From positions 1 through 28,168 of the IMG/VR virus record IMGVR_UViG_3300017708_003505: DNA of 28,168 nucleotides, one strand, 5' to 3'. This stretch comes from a virus. Every line of letters starts with the position of its first letter. Position 1 is the first letter of the stretch. The notes under the pieces are model-generated. The model saw only the letters and a list, made by a program, of their open reading frames with translations, made no database searches and was not told the DNA's origin. Below, in pieces: positions 10,253-25,149 of this stretch. A program made the position numbers and the translations under genes.

Positions 10253-10283
10253 AGCGTGATCTCGAAAGGGGTCGCGCTTTTTT
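10253..10283 (+). terminator. Rho-independent terminator after the adaptor gene
   Basis: An 11-bp stem (AGCGTGATCTC with GGGGTCGCGCT, several G-T pairs) closed by a GAAA tetraloop and followed by six T. It ends the rightward head transcript 28 bases after the stop codon. Confidence 0.85.
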
Positions 10284-10286
10284 GGC

Positions 10287-10316
10287 AATAAAAAACCCCC
10301 TCTAATGAGGGGGTTT
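10287..10316 (-). terminator. Terminator of the leftward neck/tail-tube block
   Basis: A perfect 10-bp inverted repeat, AAACCCCCTC and GAGGGGGTTT with a TAAT loop. On the minus strand it is followed by six T, so it is a good terminator for the leftward genes ending at 10364. On the plus strand only three T follow, so it is weaker there. Together with the hairpin just left of it, it separates two converging transcripts. Confidence 0.85.
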
Positions 10317-10363: not shown

Positions 10364-11815
10364 TTACGATAGGCTTAATTGACCAGTGATATTGGCGTTA
10401 GCTGTTTTATCAGTAGGTGCGAATACCAAAGTGCCACCCGCAGCGCCACTTAGGCCAGTAATACCATTTCCTCCATCGTTACCAGTAATTGCGCCACCAA
10501 CAACGGAGCTAAGATCCAAGTCAGCTGCACCAGTATAGGTAACAGGGAAACTTCTGGATGTTTGTCCGTGAACATATCCAACAGTTTGCTCTCCAGTTGT
10601 ACTAGCATCATCCCCATCAAACAAAATGCCATTAACTTTTACAGATTCTCCTGAGACTAATCCTCCGCCATTCAACTTGACTGGCTGCAGTGCAAATTTT
10701 GCATCTGTATTCGCGCCAGAGAAGAAGATATTATTTTCAAGATCGTCTGGGCCACCAACCGAAATACTGAAAGTAAGATCGACTGTTTTATTTGGGCCAA
10801 CGCTAGAGCTAAATGATTCAGAATCAAGCTTAAGATTTGTAAGCTTATAAATAGCAGCATTAGTTCCAGCAGGATCTTTAATAGTAATCGAAGCTTGAGG
10901 AATAAAAGCGTCATTCGAAATAATATCAGTTAGAGATTTTTCTTGAGTTTCATTAACAATCGCAGAAACACTAAGTGTTGGAGTGATTGGGAAGTCTACT
11001 GTTCTAGCGAATGGGAATCTAGTTCCTAGTCTTTCAATTGGGGTTCTGCTTAGAGGCACACTGATAGAAACACTTTGAACGTGAGCGCCATCTGTGCTGT
11101 GAATATTTGCGATAGTGTCGCCATCTGCATCTGACAGATCAAAAGTAATATCTGCTGGTCTGAGAGCTGTTGCAACTCCTGCATCAGTGCCAGGATCTGC
11201 TGGTCTGATTTCGATGCCTGCGCCAGCTACTTGATTAGCTATTGGAGTACCAGAAACGGGATCAATTCCAGCTCCAGTGAAAGTTCCAGAAAATCCATCT
11301 TTTGTTCCCGAAACACTTGTAGATGCGTTGATGTTAGAACCTTCAAAAGAAACAGTTACCGTTGGGAAGCTACCAACTGAAGCTTCTAGAGAGTAGTCTG
11401 TTACGAAAGCGTTACCGATACCAATTGCACCAAATGATCCAGTGCTTAAACCTGGTACACTGGCATCTGTACCTTCGGACGCTGTCATGATGTATAAGTT
11501 CTGACCGCTAGAAGAAGTGATTTGACCAGAAACAAAACCTACATTTAGGTCTGAGTTGGCGAAATTTAAAACTTCTTCGTTATACCCATCTCCAAGATAA
11601 TAAGAAACGTCAGCGGATACTGTAGGCGCTTCCAGGATAAGAGAATCAATTCTGGACAATTGTCCAAACTGATTTAGATCCGTACGGGTTACATTAAAAG
11701 AATAATTCGCTGATTGTACTCTGCGAAGTTGCATGTGATCTGCTTGGCCAGTGGAATTAATCTCCTTACTAGCGAAGAGAGCTTCTGATTGATAAATGAC
11801 TCTATTTCTACTCAT
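10364..11815 (-). CDS. Major tail tube protein with duplicated tube domain
   Basis: A 483-residue protein on the minus strand. Residues about 1-165 form a first tube-like domain (RRVQSANYSFNVTRT, APTVSADVSYYL, IGIGNAFVTDYSLEAS, FEGSNINAS). Residues about 245-358 form a second (VQSVSISVPLSRTPIERLG, TLSVSAIVNE, LDSESFSSSVG, VDLTFSISVGG). A Gly/Ser/Thr-rich C-terminal part (about 372-483) follows and may be an Ig-like outer domain. Both tube parts match two distal tail proteins further right. Known case: the T5 tube protein pb6 (464 residues) has two tube domains plus an outer domain and forms trimers. Length and layout agree, so a trimeric tube is likely. The gene is the last of a leftward block and is followed by a terminator. 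Confidence 0.8.
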   Translation of the reverse strand: MSRNRVIYQSEALFASKEINSTGQADHMQLRRVQSANYSFNVTRTDLNQFGQLSRIDSLILEAPTVSADVSYYLGDGYNEEVLNFANSDLNVGFVSGQITSSSGQNLYIMTASEGTDASVPGLSTGSFGAIGIGNAFVTDYSLEASVGSFPTVTVSFEGSNINASTSVSGTKDGFSGTFTGAGIDPVSGTPIANQVAGAGIEIRPADPGTDAGVATALRPADITFDLSDADGDTIANIHSTDGAHVQSVSISVPLSRTPIERLGTRFPFARTVDFPITPTLSVSAIVNETQEKSLTDIISNDAFIPQASITIKDPAGTNAAIYKLTNLKLDSESFSSSVGPNKTVDLTFSISVGGPDDLENNIFFSGANTDAKFALQPVKLNGGGLVSGESVKVNGILFDGDDASTTGEQTVGYVHGQTSRSFPVTYTGAADLDLSSVVGGAITGNDGGNGITGLSGAAGGTLVFAPTDKTANANITGQLSLS

Positions 11816-11837
11816 AATTTATGTATTTGTTTACAGT
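11816..11837 (-). promoter_or_regulatory. Promoter-like motif before the tail tube gene
   Basis: On the minus strand CTGTAAACAAATACATAAAT precedes the ATG, with CTGTAA starting 21 bases upstream. It matches the internal motif before the scaffold part at 6547 and resembles the GTGTAA motif of other genes. A separate promoter for the most abundant tail protein would make sense. Confidence 0.4.
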
Positions 11838-11857
11838 TAAAAATTTAAAATGTGAAA

Positions 11858-12709
11858 TCAAGATCTGGGAAATCTATTAGTTGAAACATCAAAATCGATA
11901 AATCCTATTTTTAAATCACCAGGTAATTTGTTTTGCGCTCTTTCAGAGAATTTTGAAACAGTCACATCTTCTATAAAATATGGCGCTCCAGCAGAATAGG
12001 AATTAGCCAGACTTAAGTAATTGTATGTTCCACCTTTTATATCTCCATACTCTGTAGAGGGGTGTCCAGAAAAAGGTATCTTAGAGAATGTCTTACGAGA
12101 AGTGTCCGCAAAAATAGAAAGCGCTCCGTCTAGTTGATACTCGTTGTCTGCAATAACTACCGCTTTTATAGTATTTGTAGTTTTTTCTTCCCCTCCGAAA
12201 GCAAATCCTTCATTTCTCATATACTCAGAATTTAAAAATATTGCAGGAACAACTTGATCATATGGATCTATTCCGCTTATTGATAAGTCTCCATATCTGC
12301 TGTTTATTTGAAATTTATTTTCTAATATTAAATCTTCTTCTGTTTCGTTTGTGAGATAAATATTAAAATCTTTAACAGCAAATGTGCCAGTTAATGTATC
12401 TCCTGTAACCAAACTACCGCCAGTTTCAATAATTCTGCCATTATCAAAATCGAAGAGAATGCCATTAGATCTACCACTACCTTGAAAACCTGTTGGAATA
12501 ACTGGATTCGTCGAGCCCGACACGGAGGAATCGTTTACCCATTGTTTATAATTACTCTGTGCAGAAATATAAGTGTTTGGTAGTCTACTGTCTGATTTGG
12601 CGTAAAGTGTCCCAGTTTTATTTGAATAAGCTTCGCCCTCTTGCAGAAGTTCGTGATCAAACCAAAGCATAAAGCTTGTCATTAGTTCATGTTTATATTG
12701 AGGCTTCAT
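11858..12709 (-). CDS. Neck or tail-terminator candidate, function unknown
   Basis: A 283-residue protein. The N-terminus is helical (HELMTSFMLWFDHELLQEGE). The rest is rich in short strands and turns: SNGILFDFDNGRIIE, FNIYLTNETEEDLILEN, TIKAVVIADNEYQLDGALSI. It has no cysteine-rich or catalytic motif. In its own reading direction it lies between the gp10-like gene and the tail tube gene, where phages usually encode the tail terminator or another neck protein. It is longer than most tail terminators (about 130-200 residues), so I keep the call open. The gaps on both sides hold promoter-like motifs, so it may be transcribed separately from its neighbours. Confidence 0.62.
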   Translation of the reverse strand: MKPQYKHELMTSFMLWFDHELLQEGEAYSNKTGTLYAKSDSRLPNTYISAQSNYKQWVNDSSVSGSTNPVIPTGFQGSGRSNGILFDFDNGRIIETGGSLVTGDTLTGTFAVKDFNIYLTNETEEDLILENKFQINSRYGDLSISGIDPYDQVVPAIFLNSEYMRNEGFAFGGEEKTTNTIKAVVIADNEYQLDGALSIFADTSRKTFSKIPFSGHPSTEYGDIKGGTYNYLSLANSYSAGAPYFIEDVTVSKFSERAQNKLPGDLKIGFIDFDVSTNRFPRS

Positions 12710-12716
12710 TTATTAT

Positions 12717-12725
12717 TAATTACAC
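12717..12725 (-). promoter_or_regulatory. Promoter-like motif GTGTAATTA before the 283-residue neck protein gene
   Basis: On the minus strand GTGTAATTAATAATAA runs straight into the ATG at 12709. It fills the 18-base gap between two genes of the leftward block and matches the start-proximal motif seen elsewhere. Confidence 0.42.
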
Positions 12726-12727
12726 TG

Positions 12728-13312
12728 TTAAACCTGAAGGTTGGCAAATTCTTTTTCATACTTCTTTATAAGTGCTGATATATATTGTGTATTTTTAAAT
12801 TTAGACCCAGATTTTCTAACTTTTCTAGATGATTGTATGCCAAGGCCAGATCTACTATTATCTCTACTTATTTTTAAATAATAGCCTAATCCCGATATTC
12901 CAGTCTCTATTCCTTTTGCCCAACTTCTTCCTGGAGCCCAAGGCATTGGTGTTGCAGCAAATATTTCAGCAGGTTCAGGTATATCAATCTCAAACTCAAC
13001 TGAGTTTCTGGTTGTTCTGGTGAATCTAAAATTAGTAGAATATAAAACTTTTTCTATTGCATCTATTGGATCTGAGCCAGATTCAAAACCTATAAATGAA
13101 AATAAATTTGTAGAGCCTCCCAGTGTCCCGCTAATATTACCAGAGCTTGTGCCTCCTTTTATTTCAAGGGTAACTGGATGATTAAGAAACTCAGCAATCA
13201 TTCTGTTTTTAACCTTTTGAAAAGCTGAAGCAAATTGTTTTTGGACTTGGGCTCTTGCAAGTTTGGGTACTTGCCTGTTTATTTGAGATATATTTGAACT
13301 AGTGAGTATCAT
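12728..13312 (-). CDS. Putative neck protein (HK97 gp10-like tail completion candidate)
   Basis: A 194-residue protein. The N-terminus has helices rich in Lys, Arg and Gln (KLARAQVQKQFASAFQKVKN). Next come FLNHPVTLEI, a Gly/Ser-rich loop (GGTSSGNISGTLGGS) and LFSFIGFESGSDPIDAIEKV. The C-terminus is basic (SRKVRKSGSKFKNT) and ends in a short helix. The helical start plus basic surface, together with a place between the stopper-like gene and the later neck gene, fits a gp10-type head-tail joining protein. I do not see a decisive signature. The start codon overlaps the stop of the previous gene by one base (TAATG), so translation is coupled. Confidence 0.6.
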   Translation of the reverse strand: MILTSSNISQINRQVPKLARAQVQKQFASAFQKVKNRMIAEFLNHPVTLEIKGGTSSGNISGTLGGSTNLFSFIGFESGSDPIDAIEKVLYSTNFRFTRTTRNSVEFEIDIPEPAEIFAATPMPWAPGRSWAKGIETGISGLGYYLKISRDNSRSGLGIQSSRKVRKSGSKFKNTQYISALIKKYEKEFANLQV

Positions 13313-13770
13313 TATTCTTCAATTGGAGAAAGATAAAAATGATAATATTGGGGTCCAAAAATACCAGTGGGATTGCCTTTGCTTTCTATTGTGTATTTTC
13401 TTCCTTCAAATTCACATCTTTTAGCTTCTTTTAAAATAACAAAACCGCTCCCGTCTACAGTGATTCTAACGGAGCCATCTATGGTCTCTACGCCCAATTG
13501 ACTAGAAATGTTTCCGTCTGAAAGGTTCTGTTCTCTTGCATTTATATACTTTATTCTAGCTTTTACTGTATGAGCTACGGAAGTTTTTGAAGTGCTAGTT
13601 GTTCCGCTAGAAGTTTTTCCATATATACCGTTATACTCAGAGCTGGCAGATATCAAAATCTTTTTACCTTCTTCGTAAACGGTTATATTTCTAGCAAAAG
13701 TTTCGTGTATGTCATCAATAATAGCTTTGATCGTATTTTTTTGAGAATCTGATATCAAGGAGGTGGCCAT
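13312..13770 (-). CDS. Putative head completion (stopper) protein
   Basis: A 152-residue protein, the first gene of the leftward block. It begins with a helix (SDSQKNTIKAIIDDIHETFA), followed by beta-rich segments: NITVYEEGKKILIS, TVKARIKYI, SVRITVDGSGFVIL, and an end FGPQYYHFYLSPIEE. Strands with a mid-chain linker and an end that states a measured quantity, like a bound partner, are usual for stopper proteins, which close the neck after packaging. The YTIESKGNPTGIFGPQYY stretch resembles the end of such proteins. The order after the adaptor gene supports the call. The start site is preceded by GTGTAAATATAGAC on the minus strand with no clear Shine-Dalgarno site. Confidence 0.6.
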   Translation of the reverse strand: MATSLISDSQKNTIKAIIDDIHETFARNITVYEEGKKILISASSEYNGIYGKTSSGTTSTSKTSVAHTVKARIKYINAREQNLSDGNISSQLGVETIDGSVRITVDGSGFVILKEAKRCEFEGRKYTIESKGNPTGIFGPQYYHFYLSPIEE

Positions 13771-13773
13771 GTC

Positions 13774-13800
13774 TATATTTACACTTTTTTGTGTAAAGTA
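13774..13800. promoter_or_regulatory. Divergent promoter-like region with a palindrome
   Basis: The 49-base gap between two divergent genes holds one copy of the GTGTAAA motif on each strand, joined head to head by six T: TTTACAC-T6-GTGTAAA (13778-13797), a perfect 7-bp inverted repeat. The minus copy (GTGTAAATATA) starts 14 bases before the gene at 13770; the plus copy starts 29 bases before the gene at 13820. Two promoters are expected here since the genes diverge. Confidence 0.6.
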
Positions 13801-13819
13801 ATTCAGGTATAAGGATATT

Positions 13820-14110
13820 ATGATTGCAAAAGAATTTTTGTATGATCGCTCTGATCATCACATTCGATATTTATTTAAGTCTTTTTTGCTCACTTTGGAA
13901 GAGATGCAAAAGGTTCATGAAATAAATTTTGAAAAACTATATGAAAATCTGCCAGAAGAATCTCGGCCTTTGATTGAGATGGCGGATTACTTCGACGAAG
14001 ATCATTACGAAATGTATAGAAAAAAAATATTAGATATTGGAAATTCTGTTTTGCGAGATTATAATAGTGAGTTAGAAAATTTAACAGTAGAGTTCAAATT
14101 CAAGAACTAA
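13820..14110 (+). CDS. Small acidic helical protein, function unknown
   Basis: A 96-residue protein, first gene of the rightward tail block, with an AAGGA ribosome binding site 6 bases before the ATG. It is predicted mostly helical (YLFKSFLLTLEEMQKVHEIN, EMYRKKILDIGNSVLRDYN) with no membrane segment or known motif. It lies between the neck block and the tail chaperones, and its stop overlaps the next possible start by one base. It may be a tail assembly factor; this is position only. Confidence 0.65.
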   Translation: MIAKEFLYDRSDHHIRYLFKSFLLTLEEMQKVHEINFEKLYENLPEESRPLIEMADYFDEDHYEMYRKKILDIGNSVLRDYNSELENLTVEFKFKN

Positions 14111-14136
14111 TGTTAGACTACGGAAAAAGGAAAATT

Positions 14137-14871
14137 ATGGCAAAAGAATACATTTACGAATTTACATTAAAGAAAAAAGTTAAAAAGCAGGTAGAGACTA
14201 AAAGAAAAAACAAGGATGGAGAAGAAGAAACCATCTTGTCTAATCGTACGGTTAGTGTACCAGTAAAGTTTTTTGTAAAAAAGCCGACAAGGCGCATGGC
14301 CGATGAAGCTGAAGTGTTTTATTCAGTTCAGTTAAGCAAGGCTATTAAAATGGGAATAGTCACGAAAGCAATGCTTATTAAAAAGTATGCTGACAATGGA
14401 GGGGCTTTATCAGAAGAAGAATCCAAACTGCTTTTAAAATCTCTAAAGAAACTTAATGATTTAGAAAATGAGTACAAGCTATGTTTTGTCAAAAAAACAA
14501 AAGAAAGCAAAAAAAGAGGCGAGGAGCTTGAATTAGAAATTATAACTCTAAAAAGAGAGCTTCAAGAATTAGAATCTTCTCTGCAGTCTGTTTATCAACA
14601 TACAGCAGACGCTAAGGCCGAAAAAGAAGTTTTACTTTGGTACGCGATTCAGTTAGCTAGATTTTCAGAAGAAGAAGAAGAAGAACAAAGTTTCTTTAAG
14701 GGCATAGATTTTGAAGAACAATTAGAAGACTTGTATGAAAAATATGAAGTAGACGAAAGCTTTGAATCCGAAGCTACTTCAAAAATTTGCAAAGTAGTGG
14801 GGTATTGGTTCTATAATCAAACCGCTGACAAAAAAGCTATAGAAGAGTTCATCAAGAGAGATGAGCAATGA
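14137..14871 (+). CDS. Putative tail assembly chaperone, first of two
   Basis: A 244-residue protein just upstream of the tape measure gene pair. A beta-type start (EYIYEFTLKKKVKKQVE) is followed by a long charged coiled coil (about residues 105-165) and an acidic region (SEEEEEEQSFFKGIDFEEQ). Tail assembly chaperones coat the tape measure protein before the tube closes, and they normally sit here. I chose ATG 14137, which has AAAAAGG 6 bases upstream; ATG 14110 in the same frame would add 9 residues and couple it to the previous gene. The gene overlaps the next by 11 bases. Confidence 0.62.
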   Translation: MAKEYIYEFTLKKKVKKQVETKRKNKDGEEETILSNRTVSVPVKFFVKKPTRRMADEAEVFYSVQLSKAIKMGIVTKAMLIKKYADNGGALSEEESKLLLKSLKKLNDLENEYKLCFVKKTKESKKRGEELELEIITLKRELQELESSLQSVYQHTADAKAEKEVLLWYAIQLARFSEEEEEEQSFFKGIDFEEQLEDLYEKYEVDESFESEATSKICKVVGYWFYNQTADKKAIEEFIKRDEQ

Positions 14872-15835
14872 TAGAAATTTAGAAATAGTTTCAGAGATAC
14901 TCCAGGGCGTTACCGTTGTTAGGGGCTCCTTTGGGTCTTTATATTTAAAACACCTTTCTCAGTTTGAACAAAGAGAGGTATTGTCTCAGTCAAAAATTTT
15001 TGAAAAAGAAGGCATATCGAAAGGCCTGCCAACGGAAAAGCAAGGTCTTCGAGATATACTAGATCAAGGTATGTGGTCTTTGGATAATGAAAATTTAATA
15101 AAAAATTTAAAAAAAGAAATTGATGATTTAAAATTGTCATCCTCAAAAGTTTTTTTGCCGTCTCAACAAAAACAGCTTATAAATCAATCTAAAAAGAAAG
15201 AGGAAGAATTGTTATCTCTTGAAAGAGAAAAATCACAACTTATTGGCCTGACTAGTGAAAAGTATGCTAGAAATCAAGTTCAAAAAACTATAGTAAACAA
15301 AATTCTTTTTTATGATAGAGAGTTTAAAGAAGGAGTTTACGAAGATTTGTACATAAATGAAAACATGAAAGAGGTAGAGCTATTTAAGCTACAAAGAGAT
15401 TTTTTCGAAAAATTTGAAGACTCGAAAATTTCTGAAGCTGTCTTGAGTGATTATTTTTCAATGTACCTACCATTCTGCGAAGATGTTATGGGAGTTTTCG
15501 GTAAACCTTTAGCCGATCTAACAAGTTATCAATTAAAGTTAATATCCTTTGGTAGATACTTTTTGAATATATTTAAAAACTCTCAAAAAGACATTCCAGA
15601 CAGTGTGGCCAAAGATCCAGAACTTTTAATTAGTTTTTATCAAAATCAAAGAAACGAAAGGTCTAAAACGAAAGCACAGTCTTCAGAAGGCGGGTCGGCA
15701 TACTTCGGGGCAAGCAAAGAAGACTTAGAAGATATTAAATCAAACGATGAAAGAGCAGTAGATTTAAATGAAGAAGTAAAGAAGCAAGGAGGGTCTCTTA
15801 ATATGGAACAAATGATGAAACTACACGGAGTTTAG
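14861..15835 (+). CDS. Putative tail assembly chaperone, second of two
   Basis: A 324-residue protein between the first chaperone candidate and the tape measure. It has a folded start (VSEILQGVTVVRGSFGSLYL), a coiled coil (about residues 85-125, rich in KKEEELLSLEREK), then a helical region with SDYFSMYLPFCEDVMGVFG and LTSYQLKLISFGRYFLNIF. The last 55 residues are polar and flexible. Position and size suggest a tape measure chaperone. In many phages the second chaperone is made by a ribosomal frameshift from the first. Here it has its own ATG, and its frame is closed by a stop only 20 bases upstream of that ATG, so separate initiation is likely. Confidence 0.6.
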   Translation: MSNDRNLEIVSEILQGVTVVRGSFGSLYLKHLSQFEQREVLSQSKIFEKEGISKGLPTEKQGLRDILDQGMWSLDNENLIKNLKKEIDDLKLSSSKVFLPSQQKQLINQSKKKEEELLSLEREKSQLIGLTSEKYARNQVQKTIVNKILFYDREFKEGVYEDLYINENMKEVELFKLQRDFFEKFEDSKISEAVLSDYFSMYLPFCEDVMGVFGKPLADLTSYQLKLISFGRYFLNIFKNSQKDIPDSVAKDPELLISFYQNQRNERSKTKAQSSEGGSAYFGASKEDLEDIKSNDERAVDLNEEVKKQGGSLNMEQMMKLHGV

Positions 15836-15850: not shown

Positions 15851-18800
15851 ATGGCGGTAAAACTAGGAGTTGATTTTGATCCAAATACAAAAAAGGTTGA
15901 GGCGGCTTTAGCGAGGATACAAGCCCAAGCTAAAGGTGTTCAATTTGGTGGTGGCGCCAGATCGATTGAAAAACTATCGCGTCCTCTAGGAAAAATTACT
16001 GGACAAGCTTCTGAGTTTCAAAAATCACTAGAAGCTTCTAATGCTCGTGTTTTGGCTTTTGGTGCCTCTGTCGCCGTTATTAATAAACTTTCTCAAGCTT
16101 TTGGGGCGTTAGTTAGCAATACTATTAAAGTCGAGGCGTCTTTTGCTAAAATTAATACGATTCTTGGTGGTACTCAAAAACAATTAGAGCAGTTTGGAAA
16201 TGGAATATTTAAAGTTGCTCAGAATACCGCTACATCTTTTGATCAAGTAGCCGAAGGAGCTTTAGAATTAGCTCGTCAAGGTTTATCTGTTGAAGAATCT
16301 TTGTCTAGAGTTGAAACCGCATTGAAGTTGGTTCGTGTGGCTGGAATTGATTCTCAACAAGCCGTTGCTGGTTTGACTGCCGCTATAAAAGGTTTTGAAG
16401 GAGCTGGATTAAACGTCGCGCAAATAGCAGATAAGTTGGCAGAAGTCGATACAAAGTTTGCTGTTTCTACAGAAGATTTAATTAATGGTCTAGAGCGGGC
16501 ATCTGCTTCGGCTCGTGTGGCTGGAGTAAGTTTTGATGAGCTATTGGGTGTTATAACAACAGTTCAAGAAAGAACTCAACGTGGTGGTGCTGTTATTGGT
16601 AATGCGTTTAAAACTATTTTTGCCAGACTCGGAAGAACTGATACATTACAAGCTTTAGAAGATTTAGGGATTTCAACTACAGATGCTTCTGGAAATGTAA
16701 GGTCTGCAATACCGCTTTTTCAAGAATTGGCGGTAGAGCTAGATAGACTGGGTTTAAAAAGTATAGAAGCTGGAGAAATTATTCAAAAAGTTGCTGGAGT
16801 CAGACAACGTGATATTTTAATTAGTTTGGTCGAGGATTTAACATCTGGACAAAGTCAGTTTTCAAAAGCCTTAGATGTTTCCGCTAGCGCCGCTGGATCT
16901 TTAGATAGAAAAAATGCCCAATTGAATGATACGTTAGAGGCATTAATAAATAATTTAGCAGTCGGGGCTCAAAAGCTTTCGGCCGTAATTGGTGAATTGG
17001 GGTTTACTGATGCAGCCAAAGATATTTTAGCGGTTTTTTCATCAGTGGTAAATGGTATAACCGATTTACTGCAGGGAGATTCAATGGGGGCTAAATTTGC
17101 TCAAGGAATTGTAAAGGGTATTGGGAGTATTTTAAGTGGACCTGGACTTGCCTTAATAAGCGCAATATTTATAAAGCTATTCATTGACTTAGCAAAATTT
17201 GGAGTGACTTCACTCAAGAGTTTGTTGGGTATAAATAAAGCGTCAGAGCAACAAGGTTTACTCCAAAAATCTATCTTTCAAACCCTTCTTCAAAATGAGG
17301 CAATTCAAAAAGAAATTTTAGCCCTTGAAGGTAATAAGGTAGCTCAAGAACAACTTCTTTTAAAAATATATAATCAACAGGCGGCTGCTTTAGCTAGAGT
17401 ACAAAAAGCCGCTGCAACCGTAAGCCCAGGTTTATTCAATAGAGGATTTCGGGGTGGCGAAAGTGGTGTAGGAAAAACTGGCAGAGGTGCTGGCGGTTAT
17501 GTTGCTGCCGAGGCTCGTGATGTATCTAGAGGAGTTGGCGGAGCGCCCGCAAGTTCTAAAGTGGTATCAATTCCAAACTTTGCTTTTGGTGGCGGTAAAC
17601 GCGGAACGATGGTCGCTAATACTAGCGAGTATTTTGTTCCTAATTACGCTGGTGGCGGAGATGCGATATTTAATCGTGACATGATTCGCTCTGGCGGTCT
17701 TCCATCTGGCGCTAAGAAAATAAATGCATCTGGTGGATATATACCGAATTTTAATAGATTTAAAATAGGTGACAGAAATCTCAGTTCTTCTCAAGTGGCT
17801 GCTGGTATAAACAGAGGAACAATAACAGAAGCAGACGCTAAAGCTGCTGGTTATGTTAAAGACGCAAGAGGCAAGGAACGAGCTGCAGCGAAATCAAAAA
17901 AACAGAAGAGTGCTTATAACTTTGATTCTCTTGGGCAAATAGGCGTTCTCTCTGCTTTTGCTAGGGGTGGCACTAGTATAGCTAATACAACATTTCAAAA
18001 GCTATCTACTAAAGAAAAGGGTGCGCTCGAGAGAATTGTAGGTGACGATATTACAAAACCTTCTACGCCAATATCTGTTAGAGGAATTCAAAATCAATCA
18101 TTAGAAAATATAGACAAAAGTGCTGTTTCAAGTTTTAGAAAAAATATAGATACTACTTTTGCCCCAGCTCTAATTGACTTTGCTACAACTTTAATCAAAG
18201 GCGTCGGTATTAAAAACGACGAAATGGGTGAATTTGTTAGGAATGTTTCAGACGCAAGTGGTAATTTATTTTCTACTTCTGTAGAGGGCGGTATTTTTGA
18301 ATCTGCAATTCAATTAGGCACAAAAGAATTAAAAGACATTCCTACGTTTTTAAAAGGTCCTGGTAATGATAGATCTCCATTCGATTTTGAAGAAGCAGGA
18401 AACGTATCACAAAATTTAATAAAAGCTTTTCGTTTTGACGATAAGCTTCTAAAAGCTGACGCTAAAAGATCATCAACGCCTGATGCCGTTGCATCTTTAA
18501 TTGGAAAAAGTCTTAGAGATGGAATAGCTACACGATTTCAAAGATCTGCCGCTGGAGGTTACATACCTAATTTTGCAGAAGGTAGCGGTTTAGAAGACGC
18601 TATTGGGAGAGAGCAAGCTGCTGGCGTACCAATCAATCAAATTAGAGTTAATCAAAGCGGCAAACTGCGCAACTCTCAAAATCCAAAAGGTCTTGCTGTA
18701 ACAAATACTAGGGACGAGCCAACTGGAAGAATTCCAAACTTTTTTCAAGGAAGAATTCCAAACTTTAATTTTGGAGGTTCAGGTTTTGGTCTTTTAACTC

Positions 18801-21800
18801 CTGGCGAAGCAGGCCGAAGAGGTGTAGCTGCGCCAACTGCGGGTAGCATTAGCGGAAATTTAGATTTCTCAAAGACTACGGAGGGTCTTGATGGCGCTTT
18901 TGATTCTACAGTAGGAAGATTGTTTGCTTTACAATTAGGGGTAAGTGCATTAGGTAGTGCATTTACTGAATCAGAAAGCAAGGTGGGCGAATTTGTAAGT
19001 GGATTAAATAGTGCAATTAATACAATGCTTGTTGTTTCGGCCATCGGAGCTAATCCCTTGGGAGGTTTTGGGGGCAAAAGTATTACGACATTAGTTAAAG
19101 GAACTACGGGTTTATCTAGAGCTTTTGCTTTGATGAAAGGTCTTCTTGGCCCAATAGCCCTAGGCCTTACCGCGTTGGATGTAGGTCTTAAATTATTTAC
19201 TGGCAAGGGAGTTTTTGGTTATGCTAAAGATGCAATGGTGATCTTTGGATTAGCTGCTTCAGACGCCGCTAAACAAATGGGAGATGCAGCAGAAGATTTT
19301 GCAACAAGGACAGCTGGAAAAGACGCTGGAGAAGCAACCGACACGGCGTTTCAAGATATTGAAACGCAGATAGCAGCAATAAAATCTGGTGTTGCGGTTG
19401 AAGATGTATCTCAATCAAATACAGATTTTGCATCAATATCGAGCTTAAGAGCTGGTACAAAAGTAGGAGAAAATAGAGGGCTAACGGGACTTTTTACAGA
19501 AGATATAGTACTTGAAGAAGAAGATGTAAAGCCAATTAGGGATGCCTTGGGTAATTTAGTTTTTACCTCCGCTGAAGAGCTAAGGAAAAAGATACCAGGC
19601 ATTTCAGACGAAGCTGCGGAAAATTTTCTAAAAAGTCAAAAAGAAATATTTAGCAACTTAGACAAGAGAGTTGTTGATTTTGTCAAAAATAATAAAGGCG
19701 ACTTCAACTTTACTGATATTGGAGCAAATATTGGCAACCTTACTCAAGAAGCTAGACTTGCACAATTAAACTTATTTAGTAGAACCCAAACCGCAGCGGG
19801 GCCTGCACCCAAAGGACCTCCGCCTTTAGCGGCTGGAAACATAAGTGTTGGGTCGGCTTTATTAGAAACAAGGCAGGCATTTTCAAAATCTACGTCAACG
19901 ATACAAACAGATAATTCGACTGCAAATCTGGCAGATGAACTTTCTCTTATAAAAGCCATCACTGAAGAAGAAAAAGTTAAGCTCCAAAATCAAATAGATA
20001 TAAGAAATTTAGAAAAAGATGCGGCATTGGCTAGGAACGAAGCTTTAAAGGGAATAGTTGAAGAGGCGGTAGAATCAAAGAAAATTGTCGGTGTAAATAG
20101 TGATAAGCTTAGTTCTATATTATCTCAAGTTACTGCTGAAACGGATATTCTTGATTTAACCAAAAAGACGGCAACTGAACTTGGACTTTCAGATGAAGCG
20201 ATGGCGGATCTCCTGCTTAAAGCGCAAGAATCTCTTAGCTTGTCCGAAGACGAACTTCAAACGAAAAAAGATTTGTTGGCAAACGACAAAGAAAGAAAAG
20301 ATGCGTTAGCAGAGATAAATGATGCGCTAGAAACGGCCAATAGAATACAAAATGCATCTAGAAATAATAGTTCAAATACATTTAGAAGCACTCAAGCAAA
20401 AGAGCAAGATGAAACAAGAAAAAGGAAGCAGACTTTAAAATCTGGTCCGATAGGGTCGGGAGAAGCAAGGCGACTTCAGTCACTCAACGAAATTTCAAGT
20501 CTAACTGTAGAATTAGCGGCCCTAGAAAAAGCGAGTGCTGACGCTAACGCCGCAGCCATTAAAGCAGAGGCAGACCTCAAGACAAATAAAGCCGACAAAG
20601 ACCTGATAGCAGCAGAAAAACAAGCTCAAAAAGATAAAACTTATCATAAAGACAGGCTCACAAACCTTAGCGAAATAATAGAAAAAGAAAAAGAGTTGGC
20701 CGAATTTAGGGGAAATCAATCTGGATTTAGTCTAGGTTTAGAAGACTTAGATACAGGAATATTAAGCTTTGAAGATAAGCTTGGTAGAGAAATACCAGAA
20801 CTATTTGCAAATAATTTAGGAACAGCAATTAAAGACGCTGTTAGTGGAGCCGAAGATATAGGAGACGCTCTTTCAAAAGCTGGAGAAACTTTCTTGGGTC
20901 ACATTAGGGACGCGTTTTTACAACAAGCTGCTGATCAATTTACTAGTAGTTTGATGGGTGGAATGGGAGGCGGCGGAGCTCCAGGGACAGGCGGAGGTTT
21001 AGTTGGAGGTTTATTTGATGGTGTTAAAGGTTTTTTCGGAGGAGAAAAAGGTGCCGAAGGAGCGGCTGGAGCGGCTGCTACAGCTGCAGGCAGTGCCGTC
21101 GAGGGAGAAAAAAAAGGAGGAATAAGCGGATTTTTCTCTGGACTATTTGGAGGCGGTAAAAAAGGCGCAGCTTTAGGGTCTACTCCAGCTACCCCAATGT
21201 ATGTTTCAGATGTTTCATTAAGTAAAGGTGGAGCTGGTGGAGCTGGTGGGGTTTTAGAAGGCTTGACTGGCGAAAAAGAGGGGGAAATGTCTGTAGAGGG
21301 AGAAGAAGGAAAAGGGTTTTTCTCTGGACTAACAACCAAATTTGGTGATTTATTTAGTGGCTTAAAAGATGGTTTCGGCGACATATTTGGAGGTTTTAAG
21401 CAAGGCCTCAGTGGGTTATTTAGTGGAGGAGCTGGCGGTGGCATGGGCGGCCTATTCAGTAGTATTATCGGTGGATTTTCAAGTGGATTCGGAGGATTCG
21501 GATCGGCACTTGGTGGATTTTTTGGATTCGCAAATGGAGGAAGAGTTGGATTCGCAAATGGTGGTTCAGTTGGATCAACAGATACAGTACCCGCAATGTT
21601 AACTCCTGGAGAATTTGTAGTAAAAAGATCTGCGGTAGATAAGTACGGGACGGATTTCTTATCTAGTTTAAATCAGGGCATATTACCAATGCAAGGATTT
21701 CAAAACGGAGGCTCTGTATCTCCAGTTGCAGCAGAAGCTGGCGCTTCTGCGATGGGCGGAAACCAGGTCAGCAATAACTCAGACTTTACATTTAATATTG

Positions 21801-21949
21801 ATCAAGGTGGACAAGTTAGCCAAGAAGGCGGTCAGTCATCTTCGGAACGACAAAGAGAATTTGCTGATAGAATAAGATCGGCCGTGACAACCACAATACA
21901 AGAAGAATCAAGAACTGGGGGTTCGCTAAATTATTTATATAAAGGATAA
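15851..21949 (+). CDS. Tail tape measure protein
   Basis: A 2032-residue protein, which sets tail length. At the usual 0.15 nm per residue this means a tail near 300 nm if unprocessed. The N-terminal 350 residues are the classic tape measure domain (LEQFGNGIFKVAQNTATSF, ALKLVRVAGIDSQQAVAGL, GGAVIGNAFKTIFARLG). Hydrophobic segments at about 430-452 and 1098-1117 may cross the host membrane. Residues 574-972 hold six IPNF-type motifs. A charged helical region spans about 1340-1640. Residues about 1702-1917 are Gly/Phe-rich. The end has the common GSTDTVPAMLTPGEFVVK box (from about 1908). It follows the chaperone pair and precedes the distal tail genes. No lysozyme or peptidase signature is obvious. 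Confidence 0.93.
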   Translation: MAVKLGVDFDPNTKKVEAALARIQAQAKGVQFGGGARSIEKLSRPLGKITGQASEFQKSLEASNARVLAFGASVAVINKLSQAFGALVSNTIKVEASFAKINTILGGTQKQLEQFGNGIFKVAQNTATSFDQVAEGALELARQGLSVEESLSRVETALKLVRVAGIDSQQAVAGLTAAIKGFEGAGLNVAQIADKLAEVDTKFAVSTEDLINGLERASASARVAGVSFDELLGVITTVQERTQRGGAVIGNAFKTIFARLGRTDTLQALEDLGISTTDASGNVRSAIPLFQELAVELDRLGLKSIEAGEIIQKVAGVRQRDILISLVEDLTSGQSQFSKALDVSASAAGSLDRKNAQLNDTLEALINNLAVGAQKLSAVIGELGFTDAAKDILAVFSSVVNGITDLLQGDSMGAKFAQGIVKGIGSILSGPGLALISAIFIKLFIDLAKFGVTSLKSLLGINKASEQQGLLQKSIFQTLLQNEAIQKEILALEGNKVAQEQLLLKIYNQQAAALARVQKAAATVSPGLFNRGFRGGESGVGKTGRGAGGYVAAEARDVSRGVGGAPASSKVVSIPNFAFGGGKRGTMVANTSEYFVPNYAGGGDAIFNRDMIRSGGLPSGAKKINASGGYIPNFNRFKIGDRNLSSSQVAAGINRGTITEADAKAAGYVKDARGKERAAAKSKKQKSAYNFDSLGQIGVLSAFARGGTSIANTTFQKLSTKEKGALERIVGDDITKPSTPISVRGIQNQSLENIDKSAVSSFRKNIDTTFAPALIDFATTLIKGVGIKNDEMGEFVRNVSDASGNLFSTSVEGGIFESAIQLGTKELKDIPTFLKGPGNDRSPFDFEEAGNVSQNLIKAFRFDDKLLKADAKRSSTPDAVASLIGKSLRDGIATRFQRSAAGGYIPNFAEGSGLEDAIGREQAAGVPINQIRVNQSGKLRNSQNPKGLAVTNTRDEPTGRIPNFFQGRIPNFNFGGSGFGLLTPGEAGRRGVAAPTAGSISGNLDFSKTTEGLDGAFDSTVGRLFALQLGVSALGSAFTESESKVGEFVSGLNSAINTMLVVSAIGANPLGGFGGKSITTLVKGTTGLSRAFALMKGLLGPIALGLTALDVGLKLFTGKGVFGYAKDAMVIFGLAASDAAKQMGDAAEDFATRTAGKDAGEATDTAFQDIETQIAAIKSGVAVEDVSQSNTDFASISSLRAGTKVGENRGLTGLFTEDIVLEEEDVKPIRDALGNLVFTSAEELRKKIPGISDEAAENFLKSQKEIFSNLDKRVVDFVKNNKGDFNFTDIGANIGNLTQEARLAQLNLFSRTQTAAGPAPKGPPPLAAGNISVGSALLETRQAFSKSTSTIQTDNSTANLADELSLIKAITEEEKVKLQNQIDIRNLEKDAALARNEALKGIVEEAVESKKIVGVNSDKLSSILSQVTAETDILDLTKKTATELGLSDEAMADLLLKAQESLSLSEDELQTKKDLLANDKERKDALAEINDALETANRIQNASRNNSSNTFRSTQAKEQDETRKRKQTLKSGPIGSGEARRLQSLNEISSLTVELAALEKASADANAAAIKAEADLKTNKADKDLIAAEKQAQKDKTYHKDRLTNLSEIIEKEKELAEFRGNQSGFSLGLEDLDTGILSFEDKLGREIPELFANNLGTAIKDAVSGAEDIGDALSKAGETFLGHIRDAFLQQAADQFTSSLMGGMGGGGAPGTGGGLVGGLFDGVKGFFGGEKGAEGAAGAAATAAGSAVEGEKKGGISGFFSGLFGGGKKGAALGSTPATPMYVSDVSLSKGGAGGAGGVLEGLTGEKEGEMSVEGEEGKGFFSGLTTKFGDLFSGLKDGFGDIFGGFKQGLSGLFSGGAGGGMGGLFSSIIGGFSSGFGGFGSALGGFFGFANGGRVGFANGGSVGSTDTVPAMLTPGEFVVKRSAVDKYGTDFLSSLNQGILPMQGFQNGGSVSPVAAEAGASAMGGNQVSNNSDFTFNIDQGGQVSQEGGQSSSERQREFADRIRSAVTTTIQEESRTGGSLNYLYKG
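17570..18766 (+). repeat. Six IPNF-type motifs in the tape measure gene
   Basis: Within the tape measure frame, I/V-P-N-F/Y motifs occur at residues 574 (SIPNFAFGGG), 596 (FVPNYAGGG), 631 (GGYIPNFNRF), 905 (GGYIPNFAEG), 961 (GRIPNFFQG) and 969 (GRIPNFNFGG). They sit in Gly-rich linkers and bracket a compact region of about 270 residues. Confidence 0.8.
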
Positions 21950-21951
21950 AA

Positions 21952-22995
21952 ATGAGTGAGGTATTGGCAACCTATGATAGAGATAATAATATAACTGGAA
22001 TTATCGAAGCTAACACCTTTGTTCCAGAATACGGATCTACTGTATCATTTGAAAATGAAAATGTTCACATAACCACTGCTGACAATTTTTATAAAAAGTT
22101 TTCAAAGGGCTTGAACGGTACAGAGATAAAATTAAATTTAAAATATTCAAACAAAACTGAAGAACAAGCGAGGTCTTTTTTAAGTTTTATAGAAAATATA
22201 TCAAGAACTACCTCGGGCACTTTTGATTTTAATACTCCCAATTCAGATTCTGTTGAATTATCTTTTCCTACTGGGGACATATATAAAAACATGGGTGGGT
22301 TTAATATAGAAAATTACGATTTTAGATTTCATGATGGCTTGTTTGATGTAGATTTAAAACTTATCAAAAACAGTCACTCTTCTTTTATAGATTGGAGCGG
22401 CTCTTCTTATTTAAACACTGCCAATTTTAACAGTACCTGGTCGGACGCCACATCTTATTCTAAATTTGATGTCGTTTATTTTCCAAACTATGATACAGCT
22501 GGATATTCAAACTTTGACACAGTCGCTAATAGAATTGAGAAGTTTTATTATTGCAATCAAGCTCATACTTCGGATGCAGATACAAGCCCAACGGGCGCCA
22601 ACACAAAATGGACAAGATCTTTTTTTTATGATTTAGATGATGATGTAAAAATATCTACAGACAAAAAATCAGAAATAGTAAAGCTAAAAAATTCATTTAG
22701 TTCTTTTGGTAAAACAGAAGGTAACGCTGGCTTAATAAAAGGATTAACATTAAATTTTAAAAATAGGACAGATAAAGAAACTAGATCGATTCTTCATTTT
22801 ATAGAAAAGCATGAAAACTATATGCCTTTTGAATTGCCGCTGCCTCAATTATATACAAGAAGAAAGTTTTTTGTTTGTAGCTCAATTAATCATAAATTTG
22901 TATATAAAAATTGTAATGACATAAGTATCACAATAGATGAGGTTGTTAAATTTAAGTCAGACCCAATGTTTGATAATTATTATTATGACAATTAA
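21952..22995 (+). CDS. Minor tail protein M-like protein, duplicated, with carbohydrate-binding-like insert
   Basis: A 347-residue protein right after the tape measure, where lambda-type phages encode tail tip proteins. The N-terminal part (1-140) and C-terminal part (235-347) look like two copies of one domain: LNLKYSNKTEEQARSFLSFI against LTLNFKNRTDKETRSILHFI. The C-terminal copy ends with FFVCSSINHKFVYKNCNDI, as in minor tail protein M. Between them, residues about 146-230 read TWSDATSYSKFDVVYF ... FYYCNQAHTSDADTSPTG ... KWTRSF, resembling the small aromatic CBM5/12-type carbohydrate-binding fold that phages use in tail and fibre proteins. It may cap the tube and bind the cell surface. An AAAGGA lies 5 bases before the start codon. 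It overlaps the next gene by 11 bases. Confidence 0.78.
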   Translation: MSEVLATYDRDNNITGIIEANTFVPEYGSTVSFENENVHITTADNFYKKFSKGLNGTEIKLNLKYSNKTEEQARSFLSFIENISRTTSGTFDFNTPNSDSVELSFPTGDIYKNMGGFNIENYDFRFHDGLFDVDLKLIKNSHSSFIDWSGSSYLNTANFNSTWSDATSYSKFDVVYFPNYDTAGYSNFDTVANRIEKFYYCNQAHTSDADTSPTGANTKWTRSFFYDLDDDVKISTDKKSEIVKLKNSFSSFGKTEGNAGLIKGLTLNFKNRTDKETRSILHFIEKHENYMPFELPLPQLYTRRKFFVCSSINHKFVYKNCNDISITIDEVVKFKSDPMFDNYYYDN

Positions 22996-24022
22996 TGCAA
23001 ACAGACCAACAATCACATATGAAAACGTTTCTTTGCTTAAGGGTGGAGAGACCTCATATTTGAATGCATCGAACAATGCATCTTCAATAAAATTGATTCC
23101 ACTTGTTCAAGATTTTTCTTTTAATTTTGATACTAAAACAGAAGATATATTGACGTTGGGCAATACATTTTATTCAAAAAGAATTAATAGATATGATGTA
23201 GATGTGAATCTAGATATAACTATATTTGAAACATTTGAAGACATATTTTCTGGCTTTTTTAGTGGAACCGCTCTTCTGAGCGACTTAAATAAAGATGTCA
23301 GTTTCTATTCTTTAATAGGAAAAAATAAAAATTTTGACAGTTTTTCTGACGCAGATGAAACGATAAACTTTGGAAACGCCTTCATTGAAAGCTTTTCGAT
23401 GTCTCAATCAAAAAATCAATTTTTGTCTTCTAAATATTCCTATAGTTGCAGTAATGTAAACGCTGAGCAATTAGTATCAAATGACATATCAAATCCAGCG
23501 ATAGATTTAACTGGCACTCAATTGCAGGATTTAACGGCGACCCTACCAGACGTGCAATCAATTTTGGATGCGCAATCTAATTTACAAAATAAAATTTACC
23601 CAGCACACAAAACTAACATTTCTATATCTGGGGTACAGTCTGAAGATATATTTTTAGTTAAGCCTGATATGGTTCAAGATTTTAATTTAAAAATACCTTT
23701 TGATAGAAAAAAAATATTTAAAATAGGAAAAAAATATCCCATACAGAGAAGGTTTGTAGATACTACGGAAGGCTCCATCTCTATCTCTTGCATAACTTCA
23801 GAATTTGTTGTTAATGGAAATGACTCTAATTTAAAAACATTCTTAAATGAAAACGATAGTTATGTCATTGATTTAAATTTTTTAAGCGAGGGATCTCAAG
23901 CTCAAAATTTTCAAATATCTGGAGCAAGGTTAAAATCTAATTCACATTCTGCCTCTCTAAGCGAAAACTTAAACTCTTCGTTTTCTTTTGATTTTAATCC
24001 TGTCGATTTTAAGAGACCCTAA
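22985..24022 (+). CDS. Distal tail protein, paralogue of the tail tube protein (first)
   Basis: A 345-residue protein. I chose ATG 22985 over 22937 since it overlaps the previous gene by 11 rather than 59 bases. Domain one has IPLVQDFSFNFDTKTEDILT, YDVDVNLDITIFETFEDIF and FGNAFIESFSMSQS ending in SNVNAEQ; domain two has MVQDFNLKIPFDRKKIFKIG, GSISISCITSEF and a closing LNSSFSFDFNPV. The tail tube protein shows the same order (VQSANYSFNV, VSADVSYYL, IGNAFVTDYSLEAS, SNINAS; then VQSVSISVPLSRTPIERLG). It lacks the tube protein's extra C-terminal part. It probably forms a ring at the tail tip, as distal tail and hub proteins with tube folds do. The next gene overlaps its stop by one base. Confidence 0.75.
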   Translation: MTINANRPTITYENVSLLKGGETSYLNASNNASSIKLIPLVQDFSFNFDTKTEDILTLGNTFYSKRINRYDVDVNLDITIFETFEDIFSGFFSGTALLSDLNKDVSFYSLIGKNKNFDSFSDADETINFGNAFIESFSMSQSKNQFLSSKYSYSCSNVNAEQLVSNDISNPAIDLTGTQLQDLTATLPDVQSILDAQSNLQNKIYPAHKTNISISGVQSEDIFLVKPDMVQDFNLKIPFDRKKIFKIGKKYPIQRRFVDTTEGSISISCITSEFVVNGNDSNLKTFLNENDSYVIDLNFLSEGSQAQNFQISGARLKSNSHSASLSENLNSSFSFDFNPVDFKRP

Positions 24023-25149
24023 TGACTGCAAGCAGATTAGTAAATAGATCTGATGATATTGCTGTATTTTATAGTGAAGATAACTTTGATCAGGTAAAAA
24101 TGAATGCTGGAAGCGGAATGTCTTTTTTGCCAGCAGTACAAGATTTAAATTTTGCGTTTGATGGTTTAACTAAAAAAAATAATTATATAGGCTCGAAGAA
24201 AAAAAGCTTTACGTATCCCAATCAAGCGCCAGATATTTCTCTAGATATATCTATATTAGAAAATTTTGAAACTCTTTTTGAGGATGCATTCACTGGGGGT
24301 AGTCTTGTACAAGACCTTGATAATGGAAAGAATTTTTATTTTTTAATAAGTACCGATGAAGAAAGAACAGCACTAAGTAAATACAAAAGTTCTATATCTA
24401 TAGGAAATTGTTTTTTAGATTCTATAAGCATAAATCAAAGTATAAATGGTATTTTAAAAAGTGATTATTCTTATGTTGGAAGTAATATAATTGCACAAGA
24501 ATATAGCGGTTCCAATAATGAATATTTATCTAGTAGCGGAAAAGCCCCCTCTGTTAATTCAACTGGCGATCAACAACCTGTTGGAAATTTTGTTTTTGCT
24601 GATATAGAAAAAGAAATATCGACATCTAATTATTATGGTGAGTTTACTCCTGGCTGCAAAACTTTTGTAAAGGTAAGCGGCATAGGTTCTGATACTTCTT
24701 TCTTGATTAAGCCCGACGGAATACAATCTTTTAACCTTGATTTAAACTTTAACAGAAAAAGAATAAATTCTGTAGATAAGTTTTTTCCTATGGGTAGAAA
24801 GGCCACTCCTCCGTTTTTGGGTAATATATCCATAGAAAATAAATTTTCAGATATAGAGTTTGGGGACTCTTTTATAAATTTTTTAAAAAATCCACATGAG
24901 TATCATATTAGCATAAGTGGAGAGAAGAGTAACGGAAAAAGCTTCATGTTTGACATTTCTAAGGCTTTTTTGCAAAAAAAAGCTGTAAATGGCTCGACTT
25001 CATCTAGCTTGTCGGAAAAAGCAGATTTTGTATTTGGCCTGGAAGACGCAGCGCTTCTAACAAATTTAACATCCATAGCCTCTTGGGCTAAAAATAATGG
25101 CACCATTTGGAATGATAACGACTTTATTTGGAACACTATTAATGATTAA
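24022..25149 (+). CDS. Distal tail protein, paralogue of the tail tube protein (second)
   Basis: A 375-residue protein, coupled to the previous gene by TAATG. It has the same two-part plan: FLPAVQDLNFAFDGL, APDISLDISILENFETLFED, IGNCFLDSISINQSIN and SNIIAQE in the first part; IQSFNLDLNFNRKRINSVDK, GNISIENKFSD and a final FVFGLEDA strand in the second. It is clearly related to the gene before it (shared FE..FEDAFTG/FEDIFSGFFSG segment, then a FYFLIS or FYSLIG strand) and less closely to the tail tube protein. The last 30 residues (ASWAKNNGTIWNDNDFIWN) are Trp- and Asn-rich, absent from the sister gene, and may bind a partner such as the fibre. It likely forms part of the tail tip. Confidence 0.74.
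   Translation: MTASRLVNRSDDIAVFYSEDNFDQVKMNAGSGMSFLPAVQDLNFAFDGLTKKNNYIGSKKKSFTYPNQAPDISLDISILENFETLFEDAFTGGSLVQDLDNGKNFYFLISTDEERTALSKYKSSISIGNCFLDSISINQSINGILKSDYSYVGSNIIAQEYSGSNNEYLSSSGKAPSVNSTGDQQPVGNFVFADIEKEISTSNYYGEFTPGCKTFVKVSGIGSDTSFLIKPDGIQSFNLDLNFNRKRINSVDKFFPMGRKATPPFLGNISIENKFSDIEFGDSFINFLKNPHEYHISISGEKSNGKSFMFDISKAFLQKKAVNGSTSSSLSEKADFVFGLEDAALLTNLTSIASWAKNNGTIWNDNDFIWNTIND

Follow-up and report, generated by a model that had tools for sequence, protein, structure and literature searches.

Tail tubes made of subunits with two fused tube domains occur in several unrelated phages, and trimeric tubes of this kind were reportedly termed exceptional at the time the T5 structure was solved. 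Cryo-EM has revealed a trimeric tube in T5, whose tube protein pb6 consists of a 374-residue core and an 85-residue Ig-like domain (PMC5717097), and in P74-26 (PMC10034513). At the tail tip of T5, p140 forms a decoration-less, pb6-like trimer with 9% identity to pb6; the distal tail protein of this phage is a hexamer, and its tube fusion and hub fusion are regarded by the T5 authors as independent events (PMC10038345). In HFTV1, gp41 (the baseplate-tail connector, BTC) is a two-domain pseudo-hexameric trimer at the tip, and the tube is hexameric (PMC12494034). In JBD30, a trimer of gp49, a protein of two beta-sandwich domains, bridges the hexameric tube to the threefold baseplate (PMC11445458).

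The window analysed here, a virus record of 28,168 bases, carries a siphophage structural module. Its open reading frames follow the order terminase, portal, protease, capsid, a four-gene minus-strand block, chaperone-like genes, tape measure and tail-tip genes, several of these names being given by position. The gene studied is the last of the minus-strand block, within the tail module and between the neck genes and the tape measure. Its open frame fills positions 10364-11815, the coordinates given, without a strand, in the preliminary description; it sits on the minus strand, and there is no such frame on the plus strand across this interval. We identify its product as the siphophage major tail tube protein, with two tube domains fused in one chain and a C-terminal domain that would lie at the surface:

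10364-11815, minus strand: 483-aa major tail tube protein with a fused pair of tube domains and a C-terminal decoration (open reading frame; internal duplication; model and fold match)
11282-11797, minus strand: tube domain 1, residues ~7-178 (region of the model, residues 7-~170, on which single-domain tubes superpose; strands and helices of the model)
11171-11281, minus strand: linker between the tube domains, residues ~179-215 (region between the aligned domains)
10703-11170, minus strand: tube domain 2, residues ~216-371 (model residues 213-373 superpose on single-domain tubes, among them Hcp)
10367-10690, minus strand: beta-rich C-terminal decoration domain, residues ~376-483 (in the window and L002-L006, absent in most relatives)

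Sequence searches of PHROGs, Pfam and the PDB gave nothing usable for the 483-aa protein, and PDZ matches to it were discarded as chance. The preliminary description had seen two similar beta-rich parts in it, followed by an extra C-terminal part, and had proposed a profile alignment of residues 1-165 with 225-358. Alignment A2 comprises 86 sequences of tube and tip proteins. Within it, the profile of residues 25-170 aligns collinearly with that of residues 225-372 over 106 columns, with a profile-profile score of 37.2 (E 1.3e-5 for one comparison). The control scores were all lower, with maxima of 19.5 for 100 column shuffles and 31.6 for 100 block-of-8 shuffles, a hard control in which local motifs are preserved, and with 13.0 for a reversed half. 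The motifs VQSANYSFNV and VQSVSISVPL, starting at residues 33 and 246, superpose in the profile alignment of the halves, and Q34 and Q247, at equivalent repeat positions, are invariant in 86 of 86 sequences. At the level of sequence the two halves are homologous, and the similarity suspected by eye is confirmed.

The AlphaFold2 model of the protein, computed with A2 as input (pLDDT 83.8, pTM 0.83), carries, as had been proposed, two copies of the tube fold and not a single one. They span residues ~7-178 and 216-371, close to the limits first proposed, and are followed by a third beta-rich part at ~376-483. The top Foldseek matches of the model were the tube and tip proteins of T5 and DT57C, together with SH-Ab15497 and P74-26. 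With VIA-align, residues 7-371 superpose on 8xan (SH-Ab15497; Z 20.6, 291 residues, 3.8 Å), 8ed0 (P74-26; Z 20.5, 298 residues, 3.8 Å) and 9iny (T5 pb6; Z 20.4, 300 residues, 3.7 Å), and further Z values were 20.0 for 7qg9_A, 18.5 for DT57C, 17.6 for 9ioz_A and 16.7 for 5ngj. The HFTV1 tail chain reached Z 10.5 against the tube model; single-domain tubes gave Z ~7-8 and below and matched one half only, either ~7-170 or ~213-372. Sequence identity between the model and the solved tubes is 8-10%. Because both domains fit together, at 3.7-3.8 Å over ~300 residues, their predicted placing relative to each other fits that in the solved trimeric rings. A fold match leaves stoichiometry free; we infer by analogy that three subunits would form each ring, contributing six tube domains in a pseudo-hexameric arrangement.

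Like T5 pb6 (5NGJ, 7QG9, 9INY), the protein combines two fused tube domains, in a core of ~372 as against 374 residues, with an extra C-terminal domain, which in pb6 is Ig-like and of the Big_2 type. The subunit of P74-26 (8ED0) is also two-domain and forms a trimeric ring (PMC10034513), but its solved chain of 348 aa is without the 110-aa C-terminal domain (10% identity). The major tail protein of SH-Ab15497 (8XAN), a two-domain tube by alignment over both halves, has 306 aa and no room for a decoration (8% identity). HFTV1 gp41 (the 284-residue chain of 9FKB, assigned from chain length and two-domain match) is two-domain as well, whereas the HFTV1 tube itself is hexameric.

The C-terminal part, correctly recognised at the outset, is separable, because the core is conserved without it in most relatives. 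Fewer than 30 aa lie beyond the core in 78 of the 86 aligned proteins, and at least 60 in seven, namely those of the window and L002-L006, which form one clade (support 99), and of L013. The window domain has a weak Big_3 match below the cut-off (E 0.059), and the extension of L013, at the same place, contains a significant Ig-like domain (PF16403, E 1.4e-12). Since L013 branches in the tree among decoration-less tubes, decorations were probably gained at least twice. Judged from these alignments, the C-terminal ~110 aa are a detachable decoration whose window type is confined to the clade of the window and L002-L006. By analogy with the known tubes it would sit on the outer face, and the tube would assemble without it.

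A scan of IMG/VR with the six closest sequences yielded 183 related contigs, and ~80 relatives keep the tube gene in the company of head and neck genes and the tape measure. Its immediate neighbours in the window are as follows:

10253-10316: back-to-back terminator-like hairpins, 10253-10278 on the plus and 10293-10316 on the minus strand (consensus matches only)
11858-12709, minus strand: 283-aa protein, tail terminator or neck by position (kept upstream of the tube gene; gene order in L002-L082)
12728-13312, minus strand: 194-aa neck/connector candidate by position (gene order)
13312-13770, minus strand: 152-aa head-completion candidate (weak PF05521 match, E 0.011, below the cut-off; gene order)

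The hairpins separate the convergent head genes from the tube operon. The tube gene belongs to a seven-gene block (tube-283-194-152, then 96-253-324; window positions 10364-15835) that occurs in both orientations among the relatives (L002-L061). Flanked by the head genes on one side and the tape measure on the other, it is inverted as a whole in L018, L026, L030, L038, L039, L042, L044, L056, L058 and L061, and on the tube tree well-supported branches force at least four changes of orientation. The distant group L062-L082, L071 excepted, has a collinear gene order. The two arms of the block start divergently in its middle (13771-13819), so either orientation leaves both arms reading outward; a search for flanking inverted repeats around the block found none that stood out. 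The tube gene occurs in tandem in L036, L040, L050, L054, L055, L058 and L061, as two copies or, in L061, three. The tube tree suggests separate duplication events in L040, in L036 and in L050/L054, and the tandem copies might make rings of mixed composition or a tube in two sections.

On the plus strand, the tape measure is followed by a distal-tail-type protein and by two proteins related to the tube itself:

15851-21949, plus strand: tape measure protein, 2032 aa (length and position; conserved in relatives)
21952-22995, plus strand: 347-aa duplicated distal-tail-type (gpM/DTP-like) protein (homologous halves; model match)
22937-24022, plus strand: decoration-less tube paralog, 361 aa as called (BLASTP to the tube, E 1.6e-9; orthologs match both domain profiles)
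24022-25149, plus strand: second decoration-less tube paralog, 375 aa (BLASTP to the tube, E 5.7e-7, and to the 361-aa protein, E 1.7e-38)
25176-28166, plus strand: start of a long, solenoid-like repeat protein, truncated where the window ends (short glycine/asparagine-rich repeats)

The halves of the 347-aa protein are also homologous (score 47.7, against shuffle maxima of 21.5 and 34.9). Its match to PF05939 (E 1.3e-5) is below the cut-off. The predicted model (pLDDT 76.9) resembles the tail-tip proteins of Chi (Z 11.8) and JBD30 (Z 11.5), while the lambda tip chain 8iyk_E (Z 9.4) superposes on the second half; duplication and model matches together indicate a chain with two DTP-type domains. 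JBD30 gp49 and the Chi tail-tip protein likewise combine two tube-type domains in a single chain, but those chains have ~555 aa, and the JBD30 tube is hexameric where the tube is here itself two-domain. Unlike in T5, the distal tail protein is duplicated. In L098 (7633-11064) a leucine-rich-repeat tail (DUF285, E 1.1e-128) brings the 347-type protein to a length of 1143 aa. The repeat protein, which measures 1764-1785 aa at full length in L095 and L096, is likely a tail fibre by position and repeats; in L095, a close relative, its gene is the last of the tail module and is followed by genes for a glycosyltransferase, SSB, a kinase and ribonucleotide reductase.

As called, the 361-aa frame overlaps the upstream gene by 59 bases; sequence comparison in alignment A4 points to 22985 (MTINANRP) as the probable start, giving ~345 aa. 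Profile matches place both tube domains in the orthologs of the 361- and 375-aa proteins. At least one tube match besides the tube itself was found in 22 of 28 long records, and a tube-domain match, weak in some cases, lies near the 347-aa gene in 76 of 80 loci; a scan with the 361-aa paralog alone recovered one locus. In a quick tree with long branches the tubes form one clade (SH-aLRT 99) and all tip copies lie together beyond a branch with a support of 95.9; among them, the 375-aa type groups with the window-side tip copies. An initial reading in which the tube stood alone, with nothing special nearby, was dropped once the paralogs matched in BLASTP. By analogy with p140 in T5, the two paralogs most likely form the last tube rings at the tip, a placement drawn from gene position and paralogy.

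The tip copies of relatives carry insertions of up to ~900 aa. The insertion lies in the linker in the copies of L097 (total length 497 aa), L102 (904 aa in total, residues 616-785 matching a LamG-type domain, E 1.4e-10) and L104 (1032 aa in total), and inside domain 1, just before the long strand, in those of L103 (821 aa in total) and L101 (1268 aa in total). The 375-aa type has inserts in L097 and L101. The distant group has more two-domain tube paralogs (395-430 aa; L110:8198-10665 and L112:11520-12812) beside portal and terminase, in a clade of their own. Distant relatives also have a compact third tube-domain protein of 261-272 aa (e.g. L156:5201-5992) between the tape measure and the 347-type gene, of which the window has no ortholog of its own.

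The fold by itself cannot tell a tube from a tip ring, and HFTV1 has a two-domain trimer at the tip only, its tube being hexameric (PMC12494034). The 483-aa protein might accordingly be a tail-tip ring of the p140 or BTC type and the major tube protein another gene, but this is very improbable: the structural block revealed no candidate for a single-domain tube, the gene stands on the neck side and adjoins the neck candidates, only the 483-aa copy carries a decoration, and the tip paralogs form a separate group behind the tape measure. Nor does the tube protein, taken as such, seem to have come from T5. The preliminary description had called the tube T5-like and considered that its gene might have been swapped in; the two-domain layout stands, the special closeness to T5 does not, as T5 scores level with SH-Ab15497 and P74-26 in Z. 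A recent acquisition from a T5-type phage, by exchange of the tail module, would account for the layout shared with pb6, a ~370-aa double domain plus a C-terminal domain of ~85-110 aa (PMC5717097), and for a decoration-less paralog, of which T5 has one (p140) and the window two. It is nevertheless unlikely, indeed extremely so, because sequence similarity to pb6 is undetected and the fold is no closer to T5 than to P74-26 or SH-Ab15497. Comparison of A2 with single T5 sequences by hhalign detected no similarity to pb6 (probability 0.1, E 0.45) or to the 298-aa protein adjoining it (E 0.099), and a tblastn search of 50,697 named phage records with three family members gave no match. The same neighbours are, moreover, kept around the tube gene in ~80 contigs, and the paralogs lie behind the tape measure, whereas the T5 paralog adjoins the tube gene.

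The origin of the fusion is a separate matter, compatible with the protein being a two-domain tube. A fusion independent of that in T5 and P74-26 is conceivable, though we hold it somewhat doubtful. Similarity to the T5 proteins is undetected in sequence, and such fusions recur, those of the T5 tube and hub being held independent (PMC10038345); yet the alignment is collinear across both domains, over ~300 residues at 3.7-3.8 Å, which would be expected if the fusion had been inherited from a common ancestor. At so great a distance the present comparison does not separate one fusion from several.

We therefore favour, with a probability of about 0.9, a tail with a two-domain tube in threefold rings, an outer C-terminal domain, tip rings made of tube copies and a duplicated distal tail protein. 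Both duplications, the paralogy, the folds of the two predicted models and the gene order carry this reading; the oligomeric state, the order of the rings and the surface position of the C-terminal domain would follow from the comparison with solved tails. Three tube copies would close a ring of six tube domains, rings would stack around the 2032-aa tape measure to form the DNA conduit, and the 347-aa protein would form a further pseudo-hexameric trimer. Because the tube, the tip copies and the 347-aa protein all look like two-domain subunits, a threefold organisation from tube to tip, through two tip rings, is a reasonable inference.

More speculatively, threefold symmetry may hold along the whole conduit, with a tube copy as the last ring at the tip or hub and with inserts in its domain-1 loop or linker, as in L101, L102, L103 and L104, building a plug, hub or receptor platform; we regard this extension as rather unlikely. 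It is proposed because the stretch from the tape measure to the metabolic genes showed no separate hub gene of the gp27/pb3 type, a weak indication in records that are incomplete, so that a hub may lie elsewhere. A tube duplicate may thus have replaced the hub gene.

The tube described here is a fresh member of the known two-domain class, with an unusually complete set of paralogs. Two tube relatives, L195 and L196, are on contigs binned with Verrucomicrobiales and Neomarinimicrobiota MAGs, a weak hint of hosts. Two-domain tubes are the rule in this lineage, a large group of uncultured phages to which the searches linked no named relative. The origin of tip rings by copying of the tube gene and addition of domains is still visible here in sequence; in T5 it is visible only from structures. 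The lineage also offers a natural series of tubes without decoration, with different decorations and with independently gained ones.
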